From Bacteroidales bacterium (GTDB taxonomy: Bacteria; Bacteroidota; Bacteroidia; Bacteroidales; UBA932): a stretch of 36,136 nucleotides of DNA. Positions 1-35,089 of this stretch are shown here, one piece after another (the first letter of the stretch is position 1; each line of letters starts with the position of its first letter). Where the stretch lies: the NCBI GenBank assembly GCA_017471025.1, contig JAFUWX010000090.1, positions 1-36,136 of the forward strand, in the 5' to 3' direction. The notes beneath the pieces are model-generated. The model was not told the DNA's origin, searched no databases, and was given only the letters and a program-made list of their open reading frames with translations. The translations under genes and the position numbers were made by a program.

Positions 1-246
1 ACGAAAAGCGGCGGCGTTGCTGTAAAATAGTTGAGAAAATGCTTGGAAAAGTCTTAGAATACCCCCTTCGGTCGCCTTCGGCTCCGGAACAAATAAGTCC
101 GGAATAGCAATCAACCGACAGTGGCAAGATTACCGCTGGTCGAAAGCTTTCCCGGTTATCTTTGAAAAGTTTATCTCTACCATAAACATATTACAAAGTT
201 TTAACTGAAAATGTCAAATGAGTAAAATGATTAAACTTCTAAATCG
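1..246. other. Noncoding leader region with a diverged intergenic repeat
   Basis: I see no convincing gene here. The first 30 bases read TKSGGVAVK and a TAG stop on the plus strand and could be the end of a gene outside the window, but this is too short to support. Bases 61-88 hold a C-rich block (ACCCCCTTCGG...CTCCGG). Bases 100-164 run from AATAGCAA to GCTTTCCCGGTTATCTTTG. The same two modules, in better-preserved form, occur upstream of the TonB receptor gene near 31611-31808. TATCTTTG at 157-164 resembles a Bacteroidota -7 box but has no clear -33 TTG at the usual distance. Confidence 0.4.
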
Positions 247-30981: not shown

Positions 30982-31587
30982 CTACAGGACTTTGATCAAT
31001 TCCACCTTGAAAATCAGGGCGGCGTACGGCGGGATGGCCCCGTGGGCACCGGCTTCGCCATAGGCCAGGTTATACGGGATATAGAGTTCCCATTCTGCGC
31101 CTTCGCCCATCAGTTGGAGGGCTTCGGTCCAACCGGCGATCACCTGATTGACGCCGAAGACGGCCGGTTCGCCGCGTTTGTAGGAGCTGTCGAAGACCTG
31201 GCCGTTGGTGAATTTGCCTTCGTAGTGGCAGCGGACGCGGTCGGTCTTGCCGGGCATGACGTCATTACCTTCCTTGATAACCTTGTACTGGAGGCCGCTG
31301 GGCAAGGTCACCACGCCGGGTTTTTTCTTGTTGGCCGCGAGGAATTCCTCACCGTCCTTCTTCATCACTTCCCCGATTTCAGCGGCTTCGGCGGCGCTTT
31401 CCGCTTCCAGTTCCGCGAAATACTTGTTCAGGACCTCCCCGGCTTCTTCATAGGGGATGGCCGGTTCCTGGCCTTCCATCGTGGCTTTCAATCCTGCCGT
31501 AAAGTCCTCATATTTAAGATCTTTGACTCCATTCTGCATCATGTTGTGGGCGATGCTCATTCCCAGTGCGTAGCTTTTCTTGTCCAT
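30982..31587 (-). CDS. FKBP-type peptidyl-prolyl cis-trans isomerase (201 aa)
   Basis: This is an FklB/FkpA-like enzyme that catalyses proline isomerisation during folding. An N-terminal helical dimerisation domain (about 1-100; MDKKSYALGMSIAHNM) is followed by the FKBP domain (about 105-201) with YEGKFTNGQVFDSS, VIAGWTEAL and IPYNLAYGE. There is no signal peptide, so it is probably cytoplasmic. I start at 31587; the longer frame to 31650 reads through a repeat-borne promoter. It is the first gene of a transcript with pnuC and the GxDLY esterase. Confidence 0.9.
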   Translation of the reverse strand: MDKKSYALGMSIAHNMMQNGVKDLKYEDFTAGLKATMEGQEPAIPYEEAGEVLNKYFAELEAESAAEAAEIGEVMKKDGEEFLAANKKKPGVVTLPSGLQYKVIKEGNDVMPGKTDRVRCHYEGKFTNGQVFDSSYKRGEPAVFGVNQVIAGWTEALQLMGEGAEWELYIPYNLAYGEAGAHGAIPPYAALIFKVELIKVL

Positions 31588-31604
31588 AGTGATATTTACT
31601 GTAG

Positions 31605-31693
31605 GGCAAAGATAGCAAAACTGCCTGGCATTTCCAATCCGGGAAGTCAATTTGCCAAGGGAATCCCTTTTGCCTAAGGCTTTCCCGGCTATC
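31605..31693. repeat. Promoter-bearing repeat, copy A
   Basis: Bases 31605-31643 are identical to the inverse complement of copy C (33871-33909). Bases 31680-31693 (CTTTCCCGGCTATC) match the other end of copy C. Between them copy A has 36 bases that copy C lacks. Bases 31611-31654 are repeated exactly at 31765-31808. Confidence 0.85.
31607..31637 (-). promoter_or_regulatory. Repeat-borne promoter of the FKBP gene
   Basis: Inside copy A the minus strand reads TTG (31637-31635), 20 bases, then TATCTTTG (31614-31607), 19 bases before the FKBP start. Confidence 0.65.
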
Positions 31694-31697
31694 TTTG
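31668..31697 (+). promoter_or_regulatory. Possible plus-strand promoter toward the btuB-like gene
   Basis: TTTTG (31668-31672), 17 bases, then TATCTTTG (31690-31697). If used, the btuB-like message would have a leader of about 205 bases holding the hairpin and copy B. Confidence 0.5.
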
Positions 31698-31764
31698 CCC
31701 TCCGGGCTGTCTATCATTGAAGGGGTGGACCCCTTCAAACTACCCCCGTCGGCCAACGGCCTCC

Positions 31765-31808
31765 GATAGCAAAACTGCCTGGCATTTCCAATCCGGGAAG
31801 TCAATTTG
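31765..31808. repeat. Repeat copy B (truncated, direct)
   Basis: These 44 bases exactly repeat 31611-31654, 154 bases downstream. The bases that would complete the TATCTTTG box are missing, so this copy has no promoter. Confidence 0.9.
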
Positions 31809-31894
31809 GTCTTGCCGCCATTCTTTTCTTAGGAATGATAAAAAATAGTTGCTTCAGATTCATAAAAATGAGGCAAGTATTGTTTTTGAATGAC

Positions 31895-31902
31895 TAACTT
31901 TG
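31895..31902 (+). promoter_or_regulatory. -7-like element directly before the btuB-like start
   Basis: TAACTTTG ends 6 bases before the ATG at 31909. No -33 TTG stands at the right distance. If it is functional, the message would be nearly leaderless. Confidence 0.35.
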
Positions 31903-31908
31903 CAGACG

Positions 31909-33843
31909 ATGAAAAAATGGATGGTCATAGGGGCCCTGTTCCTGTGTGGTCATGTGGCGGGACAAAATGTCCTGCCGCCGGCCCATGTGCTGGAAAGCGC
32001 TCCGGCGGGAGCGACCGAACCGACGGATACCATCCCCTCCCACGTGCTGCAACGCAGTACCCATCTGACCGATGCCCTGCGTGGCCTGACCGGAATCCAG
32101 CTTCGGGACTATGGCGGTCTTGGCGGTCTCAAAACAGTCAATATCAGAAGTTTGGGAAGCGAACATACAGGCGTATTCATAGATGGGATACCCGTGGATA
32201 ACGCCCAGAACATGCAGGTCGATCTGGGTCGGTTCGCCCCGGAGATGTACACCCGCGTACAGGTTTATAACGGTCAGCGCGACGCCCTGCTGCAAGGGGC
32301 CCGGGAATATGGCAGTTCCGCCGTCCTGTATCTGGAAAGCGCCCCGCCGCTTGCCGACGGGCGGCCCTGGCGCTTGAGTGTCCGGATGACGGCCGGTCCT
32401 TTCGTGGCCGCCCAACCTTCCATCATTCTGGAGAAATGCCTGGGGCGTGTGACCGCCCGCCTGAGCGGCGGAGCCGTTTTCTCCAATGGACAATACCCTT
32501 TCCATGTGCAGGACACCCGGATCGGACCGGACGGCACTTTGACCGGATATGATACCGTGATGGTCCGGCGCGGTGGCGACCTGCGAAGCCTGCGGGCTGA
32601 AGGACAGTTGTTCGGGCGCGGCTGGCGCCTGCACGGATATGTCTATGGCAGCGACAGAGGCCTTCCCGGGCCGGTGTTCAAACGGGCCGGGGACTGGCCG
32701 CAGAGCCGGGACCGGCAGCGGGACCTCAACAGTTTCCTCCAAGGCGGCGGCCGGTGGGCTATCGGGCAGCGCAACACGCTGAAAATAAAGGGGAAATACA
32801 GCTATGACGACCTGACCTTTCGGGATTATTCCGAATATGACGCGACGCTGGCTCCGGCGGAATTCCGTTACCGCCAGCACCAAATCTACCTCAGTGCCGC
32901 CGATGCACAGGACATGACTTCCTGGTGGAAAATCTCCTTGGCGGCCGACTTCCAGATGAACGCTCTGCAGAGCAACCTGCCCCATTTCGTCCAGCCGCGA
33001 CGCTACACCGGATATGCCGCCTTTTCCAACCTCTGGGTATTCCGCCGGCTGAAGGCGACGGCCAGTCTCCTGTACACGCGGCTGTGGGATATCTCCCTGG
33101 CCGGGAAATCAAGCCGCCAGGCGCTCTCTCCCTTTGTCAGCGTCCATGTCCGGATGATGCCCGGGTGGACTCTGGAGGGCTTCGCCAAAAGGTCCTTCCG
33201 GATGCCGTCGTTCAATGACCTGTATTATACGACGGTCGGAAATGCTTCCCTGCGCCCGGAAGATGCCTGGCAGTTCCAGTTGGGATCGGCCTGGGCCGGC
33301 GGGCCCTGGCAGCTGCGGGGGGCCGTCTATCACAACCGTATTACGGACAAAATCATCGCTGTCCCGGCCGCCAGTCAGTTCCGGTGGAGCATGTACAACA
33401 TAGCCCAGGTGCGGATCCTGGGGGCGGAAGTGCGCGCCGGCTATTCACGACAACTGGGCCCCCATGCCGTATCGGCCACCCTCCGATATACCTACCAGAA
33501 AGCCCGGAATGCCGGGGATTCTCCCTGGGCCGGGCATCAGATTCCCTACATTCCCGTCCATAGCGGACAGACGGATATCCATTGGGAATTCCGGGGTTGG
33601 AGCGCAGATTTGTGCCTGGCCGCCTGGAGCGAACGCTTTTCTTCCCAGGCCAACCTGCCGGCCTATCGGCTGGCTCCGGTCCTGACGCTGGATGCTTCGC
33701 TCTCCCGGGAATGGCCGTTGGGTCCCGGCTCCTTGAGCGTCAGCCTACAGGGACGGAATCTGACCGGTTCACGTTATGAAATCGTCAAAGGATACCCGAT
33801 GCCGCTCGTCCAAGGGCTCCTGTCCCTGGGTTACCGCCTTTAA
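31909..33843 (+). CDS. btuB: TonB-dependent outer-membrane receptor, BtuB-like (644 aa)
   Basis: This gated barrel uses TonB energy to import a large ligand. A signal peptide (MKKWMVIGALFLCGHVAG) is followed by the plug domain (about 40-150: DALRGLTGIQLRDYGGLGG, NIRSLGSEHTGVFIDGIPV). A 22-strand-like barrel then ends in GLLSLGYRL. The size is close to vitamin B12 receptors and much smaller than SusC proteins; the carboxypeptidase-like N-terminal domain of SusC is absent. The start at 31909 is preferred over an upstream TTG in the same frame. The next gene encodes a BtuG-like propeller, and in Bacteroides BtuB and BtuG form a cobalamin uptake pair. The substrate is therefore probably a corrinoid, inferred from context. 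Confidence 0.82.
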   Translation: MKKWMVIGALFLCGHVAGQNVLPPAHVLESAPAGATEPTDTIPSHVLQRSTHLTDALRGLTGIQLRDYGGLGGLKTVNIRSLGSEHTGVFIDGIPVDNAQNMQVDLGRFAPEMYTRVQVYNGQRDALLQGAREYGSSAVLYLESAPPLADGRPWRLSVRMTAGPFVAAQPSIILEKCLGRVTARLSGGAVFSNGQYPFHVQDTRIGPDGTLTGYDTVMVRRGGDLRSLRAEGQLFGRGWRLHGYVYGSDRGLPGPVFKRAGDWPQSRDRQRDLNSFLQGGGRWAIGQRNTLKIKGKYSYDDLTFRDYSEYDATLAPAEFRYRQHQIYLSAADAQDMTSWWKISLAADFQMNALQSNLPHFVQPRRYTGYAAFSNLWVFRRLKATASLLYTRLWDISLAGKSSRQALSPFVSVHVRMMPGWTLEGFAKRSFRMPSFNDLYYTTVGNASLRPEDAWQFQLGSAWAGGPWQLRGAVYHNRITDKIIAVPAASQFRWSMYNIAQVRILGAEVRAGYSRQLGPHAVSATLRYTYQKARNAGDSPWAGHQIPYIPVHSGQTDIHWEFRGWSADLCLAAWSERFSSQANLPAYRLAPVLTLDASLSREWPLGPGSLSVSLQGRNLTGSRYEIVKGYPMPLVQGLLSLGYRL

Positions 33844-33856
33844 CGGCCCCCGCCGA

Positions 33857-33909
33857 GATAGCCGGGAAAGCCCGGATTGGAAATGCCAGGCAGTTTTGCT
33901 ATCTTTGCC
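33857..33909. repeat. Promoter-bearing repeat, copy C (inverted relative to copy A)
   Basis: The 39 bases 33871-33909 are the exact inverse complement of 31605-31643. Bases 33857-33870 are the inverse complement of 31680-31693. It therefore equals copy A with 36 internal bases removed, and lies on the other side of the btuB-like gene. Confidence 0.85.
33877..33907 (+). promoter_or_regulatory. Repeat-borne promoter of the btuG-like gene
   Basis: Inside copy C, TTG (33877-33879), 20 bases, then TATCTTTG (33900-33907). The btuG-like start is 24 bases further, leaving a very short leader. Confidence 0.65.
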
Positions 33910-33931
33910 TCAATATATAGCTCTTTAACAT

Positions 33932-35089
33932 ATGAAACGAATTACACTGCTCGTGACGAGTGGCATCCTGGCGTTAGGCGTCATCGGATGTCAGAAAGGC
34001 GGTCCGCAGGGACCGCAAGAAACCACCTCCAAGGACGAACAACTTGCGGGTGAGGCGGTTACAGTAGGTGAAACGGGTGCAGGCACCAAACTCTTCATCC
34101 TCAATGAAGGCGCCTTCCAAGCCAACAACTGCACCCTGGATTTCCTCCGTTATGCCGATGGCTGTTACATCAGCGACGCTTTTGGAAAGATGAACCCCAC
34201 TGTACCTCTTGGACTTGGCGATACCGGCAACGATATCGCCGTCTATGACGATAAAATCTGGATTGTACTCAACGGATCCGGCGCGGTCACCGTGCTGGAC
34301 GCCCGGGACGAGAGCTTGATCGGGACGCTGGAAGTCCCTGCTCCCCGGCACCTGGCCTTCATCGGCAATGACCTGTATGTCACCTCTTACGAAGGTGCCG
34401 TCTGGGGCGGAGAGGCCGTCCTGGGGGCGGTTTATGGCTTTGACGTCAAGACACTTCAGCCCGATGGAAAGCAAACGGTCGGCTGCCAGCCGGAAGGCCT
34501 GGCCGCATCGAACGGGAATCTGTATATCGCCAACAGCGGCGGCTACCAGGCCAACGGTTATGAAATGACCCTTTCGGTCCTGGATGCCACAACGCTGGAA
34601 AAGACCGACGAAATCCCTGTGGCGGACAACCTGCACGAAGTCCTGGCGGATGATTCCGGCAACCTGTGGATTACCACATACGGTATCGGGGAATATGATG
34701 CGGAATGGAATTATGTCCAGACCGTCGCCTGCAACCTATACCGCTATGACATCGCCAGTGGAAAGATTTCCCGGATTCCCGACGTCCATGCCAGCCGCAT
34801 CTGTCGCTGGAAGGACGGTATCGCCGCTATCGGCAACGACGCCGAATTGGCCGGAGGCGAATCCTGGAGCGTCCATTTCATCCATGGCGACGGCACACTC
34901 GCCGGCACATTGCCGCAGGTCCCGGAAGGCACCCTGTACGGCCTGTGCTGGAACCCTTCGAACGATGACTTTTATCTGACCACGACGGATTACACCACCC
35001 CGGGAAAAGTCTATGCCTACGATGCCGCCGGCAAACCGAAATGGTCGGCTCAGGCGGGTCTCAATCCGGCTCATCTCGCCGTCTGGTAG
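33932..35089 (+). CDS. btuG: BtuG-like surface lipoprotein, seven-bladed propeller (385 aa)
   Basis: This lipoprotein has a lipobox VIGC (Cys20) and a YncE/DUF5074-type beta-propeller. LFILNEGAF, GDTGNDIAVYDDKIWIV, RHLAFIGNDLYVTSYEGAV and GCQPEGLAASNGNLYIANS follow the order seen in Bacteroides BtuG, which captures vitamin B12 with very high affinity and hands it to BtuB. It sits directly after the btuB-like receptor gene. I rate the family match as strong from remembered motifs. Binding of B12 specifically is inferred. A short Gly/Pro-rich linker (residues 21-55) separates the anchor from the propeller. Confidence 0.83.
   Translation: MKRITLLVTSGILALGVIGCQKGGPQGPQETTSKDEQLAGEAVTVGETGAGTKLFILNEGAFQANNCTLDFLRYADGCYISDAFGKMNPTVPLGLGDTGNDIAVYDDKIWIVLNGSGAVTVLDARDESLIGTLEVPAPRHLAFIGNDLYVTSYEGAVWGGEAVLGAVYGFDVKTLQPDGKQTVGCQPEGLAASNGNLYIANSGGYQANGYEMTLSVLDATTLEKTDEIPVADNLHEVLADDSGNLWITTYGIGEYDAEWNYVQTVACNLYRYDIASGKISRIPDVHASRICRWKDGIAAIGNDAELAGGESWSVHFIHGDGTLAGTLPQVPEGTLYGLCWNPSNDDFYLTTTDYTTPGKVYAYDAAGKPKWSAQAGLNPAHLAVW

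Follow-up and report, generated by a model that had tools for sequence, protein, structure and literature searches.

As a rule, REP elements carry a tetranucleotide tag, and putative mobile promoters, as Matus-Garcia, Nijveen and van Passel reportedly defined them in 2012, are near-identical promoters that stand before unrelated genes of one genome. The 2012 study is cited on putative mobile promoters in the accessible text of PMC8049555. BrickBuilt, a MITE of Porphyromonas gingivalis, is described in the available part of PMC4596501 as intergenic, with terminal inverted repeats, ~19 copies, outward promoters and a 23-nt minisatellite. REPs are entered by IS110-family elements (excerpts of PMC1525189 and PMC11208160), and IS200/IS605 elements, which are kin of RAYT, generate no larger target duplications according to the accessible portion of PMC2817692.

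Like putative mobile promoters, the near-identical promoter sequences that we describe here precede unrelated genes; unlike them, they belong to a defined palindromic element whose arms contain the -7 box, and they are accompanied by a hairpin with long flanking duplications. With BrickBuilt, compared by its description in the available part of PMC4596501, the element shares a dispersed, intergenic distribution in a Bacteroidota genome, terminal inverted repeats and promoters, but it is <100 nt long and ends at the -7 box, in contrast with the 23-nt minisatellite of BrickBuilt. The hairpin resembles REP elements, as excerpts of PMC2817692 and PMC3733652 portray them, in being short, intergenic, tagged with a tetranucleotide and apparently entered by IS110-family elements, while it differs from REP/RAYT systems in that no Y1 transposase was found in the genome, the flanking duplications span 32-102 bp and ~11 copies were seen. 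As in the invertible promoters of Bacteroidales, to the extent that the accessible literature describes them, a promoter lies between inverted repeats; here, however, no off-orientation copy was found, the copies are single and dispersed, and the repeat overlaps the -7 box.

The window, as we call the whole 36,136-nt stretch of Bacteroidales DNA analysed, holds a perfect 39-bp inverted repeat (31605-31643 and 33871-33909, 100% complementary over 39 nt, 2227 nt apart), as a preliminary description had reported. Two further observations made there were reproduced: both exact copies carry TTG-N20-TATCTTTG pointing outward, copy A toward an FKBP gene and copy C toward a btuG-like (DUF5074) gene, and copy C equals copy A minus a 36-nt block, beyond which the two copies agree for 37 nt and part at the 38th. 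Absent from that description were copy B, whose 44 nt match A over 44/44 in A's orientation and in which the -7 box breaks off at TATC|GGAG, and a further family member near the left end, which is diverged and also truncated. The 29-nt core has three matches in the window at ≤3 mismatches, two of them exact, and none in 100 shuffles. The FKBP ATG lies 19 nt past the TTTG of A, and the DUF5074 start codon 24 nt past that of C. The features are the following.

1..61, minus strand: IS110-family-like element end, interrupting the second hairpin, at the contig end
62..85, minus strand: second GGAG hairpin element, start only, broken at GAAGGGGG
82..167, minus strand: fourth window copy, diverged, cut at TTGTT|CCGGAG in the -7 box (covariance model E 0.0022)
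30985..31587, minus strand: FKBP-type peptidyl-prolyl isomerase gene, downstream of copy A (PF00254, PF01346)
31604..31700, minus strand: copy A, full-length palindromic promoter element with arms GGGCAAAGATAGC and GCTATCTTTGCCC, enclosing the 39-base repeat at 31605-31643 (covariance model E 1.5e-10)
31607..31614, minus strand: copy A's -7 box TATCTTTG, oriented toward the FKBP gene and preceded at 20 nt by TTG
31690..31697, plus strand: copy A's second TATCTTTG, located in the opposite arm and pointing the other way, with no -33 identified for that box
31701..31764, minus strand: REP-like element of two hairpins with a GGAG tag, separating B from A, right boundary approximate
31765..31808, minus strand: copy B, 44-nt duplicate of A, ending at TATC where GGAG starts
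31912..33843, plus strand: TonB-dependent receptor gene between A and C, called btuB-like in the preliminary description (PF00593, PF07715)
33853..33910, plus strand: copy C, short form, 36 nt shorter inside, left arm eroded, enclosing the 39-base repeat at 33871-33909 (covariance model E 1.6e-11)
33900..33907, plus strand: copy C's -7 box TATCTTTG, oriented toward the DUF5074 gene and preceded at 20 nt by TTG
33932..35089, plus strand: DUF5074 gene downstream of copy C, called btuG-like in the preliminary description (PF16819)

The reading that we favor, with a probability of about 0.68, is that a dispersed promoter module, combined with insertion of a hairpin and a long target duplication, explains the inverted repeat. 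Both copies of the repeat would belong to a palindromic element that is non-coding, dispersed in the genome and equipped with a promoter. Each copy would provide the gene a few bases beyond it with a promoter of the Bacteroidota type (-33 TTG, -7 TATCTTTG); the opposite orientation of A and C would follow from their genes lying on opposite strands, each copy facing its own. Copy B would have arisen when a REP-like element of two hairpins, tagged with GGAG, inserted into the -7 box (TATC|GGAG) and 44 bp of promoter were duplicated, with A left intact. Since the target duplication is long (32-102 bp), one intact promoter would stay beside the gene. If this is true, a single promoter module that has spread drives several housekeeping genes in one Bacteroidota-type species, a hairpin element enters the most sensitive promoter bases yet the gene escapes silencing through the duplication of its promoter, and there is a concrete route for promoter replacement in bacteria.

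The core is not confined to the window, in keeping with the portability proposed for it: in the window's own genome (G000; 2.0 Mb in 109 contigs, 80.7% complete, 1.93% contamination), the exact 29 bases also occur on C46 ahead of an EamA-type gene, where the flanks of this copy (D) differ from those of the window copies. No match to the core at ≤3 mismatches was found among 36 same-genus and 24 same-order genomes. Copy D lies ~100 bp from an opposite-facing TATCTTTG that adjoins a tRNA-Ser gene (G000:C46:32094-32198; L172:12094-12198), so D is possibly part of a divergent promoter region.

By searching with 31600-31815 and inspecting the neighborhoods of the matches, we found a wider palindromic element of which the 39-bp repeat is one subfamily. 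Its arms GCAAAGATAAC and GTTATCTTTGC surround TTG-N19/20-TATCTTTG, with the consensus GCAAAGATAAC-yGGGAAAGCC-spacer-GATTG-(5 or 6 nt)-CCrGrC-nnn-TTTGTTATCTTTGC. The arms are complementary and each holds a -7 box, the -33 TTG serving the right-hand one; the short form measures ~58 nt and the long form ~95 nt. The own genome has the exact arm pattern at 7 places, the reversed control at none, and 3 of 40 other same-genus genomes contain it once each with unrelated interiors.

A covariance model built from nine copies (R1) identified 11 intact copies in the own genome at E <= 1.4e-7 and five weak ones, namely C1, C100, C99:4699 and C90 at 8.8e-6 to 8.8e-4 and C84 at 0.05; with D included via its exact core match, the genome has 17 intact copies (12 strong, 5 weak). 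The R1 list had 35 rows, from which 16 intact copies were kept and 8 reverse-strand re-hits, four broken copies (C77:24265, C91, C78:82 and C43:394) and seven matches taken as generic (C27, C21:34874, C78:15830, C47, C21:9613, C14 and C88; all but C47 and C14 inspected) were dropped. Among 60 other same-genus genomes, R1 found no close match (best E 1.15e-3, with stricter filters), with weak matches at E <= 0.1 in 33 of them; those inspected were mostly generic back-to-back -7 palindromes, and the top matches in relatives score as well as C90 (8.8e-4) and C84 (0.05) do. Promoter and hairpin patterns had 0 matches in broader genome-contig and viral-contig collections, from which the own genome or its close kin were possibly omitted.

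Both arms, each containing a -7 box, are present in 13/17 intact copies, which have the terminal inverted repeats of a MITE; the arms are eroded in C and absent in D, C100 and C84. No short target duplication of constant length was recognized around the promoter element, the arm flanks being complementary and not directly repeated. A known riboswitch is not indicated, since Rfam had no match in the window or 18 further loci, except tmRNA in a relative. Separately, a stretch of >200 bp is nearly unchanged between window ~168-390 and G000:C99:1-263; it includes the first part of a small ORF (MKKTYTTPEMETMVIQ...) as well as the sequence preceding a promoter copy.

Bacteroidota promoters have a -33/-7 spacing of 19-21 nt. 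Bacteroides promoters combine a -7 TAnnTTTG with a -33 TTTG or TTG in the accessible portion of PMC7366714. All 17 intact copies keep TTG-N19/20-TAnnTTTG, and hence both the -7 and the -33 element of a primary Bacteroidota promoter; their -7 boxes read TATCTTTG in 15 copies, TACCTTTG in one and TAAATTTG in one. A TTG at this distance (19-20 nt) precedes only 26 of 85 TAYCTTTG octamers in 422 kb of the own genome, a control set that includes some of the same intact copies. By this anatomy, and by the unrelated genes that the wider family precedes, the idea of a portable promoter is supported, and the copies probably act as active promoters. Promoter type and gene content together point to Bacteroidota as the source of the genome.

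Fifteen of the 17 intact copies lie 6-35 nt ahead of an ATG-initiated ORF that encodes at least 80 aa; such an ORF is missing within 150 nt of C99:264 and C90, and the 84-aa ORF downstream of C84 is possibly in the wrong frame. Control rates were high, with an ORF start within 60 nt of 510/2000 random positions and of 47/84 octamers, so ORF position by itself is modest evidence. Besides C84, Pfam names 12 of the 14 other downstream products: MutS, a ketoacyl synthase, an SRP54-type GTPase (FtsY-like), a SPOUT methyltransferase (RlmH-like), a CdaA-like diadenylate cyclase, a carboxyl transferase, a DcuA/B transporter, an alkaline phosphatase, a sigma-54 activator, FKBP (A), DUF5074 (C) and EamA (D). 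A calcineurin-like phosphoesterase lies downstream of C100, and the product downstream of C21 has no Pfam match. Several downstream genes are housekeeping genes. A near-identical promoter sequence is thus found in one genome ahead of non-homologous genes (different Pfam families), and we infer that the copies spread by copying, not by convergence.

At six loci (the window, C13, C77, C90, C43 and C99), a GGAG-tagged two-hairpin element of roughly 55-65 nt lies between two local promoter copies, which are identical to each other, in the same locus order, at 44/44, 31/32, 43/43, 63/70, 94/102 and 42/43 positions. The upstream copy stops inside its -7 box, 0-3 nt from GGAG, and the downstream copy is intact at all six. 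When ten GGAG hairpins were inspected, a truncated promoter lay upstream in eight, including C91 and the window's left end, and not in C17 or C101. In a flanking-duplication test, 7/12 hairpins scored at least 18, while 95% of 400 random positions scored 10 or less, with a maximum of 18. Against that 95% value of 10, no flanking duplication was found at C17 (score 6) or in the relative G004 (score 7); C91, C101 and the window's left end also failed the test, and an IS or a contig end lies downstream there.

Direct repeats of at least 20 nt that are 30-400 bp apart occur at four places in 422 kb of the own genome, all of them around GGAG hairpins. One of the four (G000:C21:36449-36618; L170:16449-16618) is a 49-nt duplication just beyond a tRNA-Leu gene, and in the relative G008 a comparable hairpin lies between copies of an 18-nt repeat at the end of a gene, indicating that long duplication accompanies the hairpin and not the promoter alone. 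The hairpin is probably the inserted part. The 49-nt duplication on C21 flanks a third subtype of GGAG hairpin. No promoter-hairpin-promoter layout was found in 390 kb of relatives, nor was a description of it found in a limited look at the literature. Empty sites were sought in relatives via the receptor gene, but with a best receptor identity of 48% the relatives are too distant to show them.

In an alignment of 10 hairpin sequences from three species (8 from the own genome, 1 from G004 and 1 from G082, the last offset by one column), 92.5% of cells are paired. Seven of 12 pairs changed on both sides, which 5/500 shuffles reach, and the covariation score was reached by 0/500 shuffles; by one of the five measures, further pair types, the hairpin had fewer than the shuffles. 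Single-strand folding was unexceptional (z -0.7 to -1.7). The hairpin thus has the tag (GGAG) and the maintenance through paired changes that mark REPs, while the RAYT (Y1) transposase family PF01797 had 0 matches in the own genome, which is 80.7% complete.

Under the favored reading, the module could possibly have spread via template switching at hairpins, or as a composite that enters at TTAT(C) and restores the -7 box. In the latter form, which we regard as doubtful, the mobile unit would consist of GGAG hairpin, complementary arm and promoter, ending in TTATC, and would insert into the -7 box at TTAT(C)|TTTG, with the box rebuilt at its right end; since the box is rebuilt, the gene would be given a new promoter and not be silenced. 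The arms of 14 elements (13 from the own genome, 1 from G004) are complementary beyond the shared letters, with a summed run of 58 vs ~32 for shuffled partners that 0/20000 shuffles reach, in a test that is partly circular because some elements were found by a model containing arm pairs. C89 has no such extension, and four pairs in relatives showed nothing (mean 0.75 vs 0.74 shuffled). In the relative G004 (G004:C84), a GGAG hairpin is followed by GCGCAAAGATAGTCC...GGACTATCTTTGCGC, the same composite in other letters. C17, with an unrelated TTTTAAT|GGAG at left and a family promoter ending GTTATC|TTTG at right, would be a clean case of composite insertion. In such a composite the left arm, whose bases complement both the -7 region and the locus-specific letters past it, might serve as a built-in DNA guide or end-recognition hairpin.

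Hairpins provoke slippage and template-switching events, and the promoter duplication and hairpin copying could be by-products of repair that involve no mobile element. The variable length of the duplication (32-102 aligned nt) is consistent with such events, as is the duplication of 49 nt beside the tRNA-Leu gene in place of a promoter. However, six loci share the junction TTAT(C)|GGAG to within 0-3 nt, and the hairpin structure is maintained through paired changes, making this explanation quite unlikely.

The copies might also be a shared regulatory site, an operator plus promoter kept alike by selection across a regulon in which nothing moved. Although the copies are located at promoters and the core palindrome TGCCAGGCA, read by eye, lies between -33 and -7, the canonical copies lack this palindrome, the identity extends over everything from -33 to -7 and gives way abruptly to different flanks, the downstream genes have no common function, and there is no close match among 60 relatives. 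We therefore consider a shared site very unlikely.

The idea of the preliminary description that the 2.2 kb segment from A to C could invert found no support and was not disproved; the favored reading accounts for the orientation of A and C by their own genes on opposite strands. A DNA inversion switch, in which either this segment or the stretch between one element's arms flips genes on and off, would fit the 39-bp perfect inverted repeat, the two arms with a -7 box each in 13/17 intact copies, and the accessible literature, in which invertible promoters are common in Bacteroidales. It is nevertheless a remote prospect, since the -33 serves the near gene in 17/17 intact copies and none (0/17) is in the off orientation, and since the search with the 29-base core found no partner for copy D, which faces its gene. 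An artefact of assembling a metagenome-derived genome, to which 109 contigs, 1.93% contamination and several contigs ending at promoter or hairpin repeats might point, is hardly credible given that six loci have the same layout with locus-specific duplicated letters and that the composite of hairpin and promoter also exists in G004.

A number of contigs break where a hairpin is split at GAAGGGGG, as at the left end of the window. Breaks with IS110-family-like ends inside GGAG hairpins were found at window 1-86, G000:C91:1-150, C101:1-149 and both ends of C54, and the broken contig ends match both ends of ~1.86 kb elements in the relatives G021 and G071, whose copies encode an IS110-type transposase. 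IS110-family elements thus seem to have entered some GGAG hairpins, which, if true, would be a case of such elements using GGAG hairpins as landing sites. The contig-breaking repeat had also been considered as an rRNA operon, an idea dropped because the relatives' copies hold the IS110-type transposase. Among other repeats in relatives, G016:C1 has a series with a 52-bp period (L175:3327-3811) that is apparently unrelated to the promoter family, and G004:C89 (L028 ~120-170) has a window-like hairpin (GTCTGAGGGGTCCACCCCTCAG) ahead of a tRNA-like stretch.
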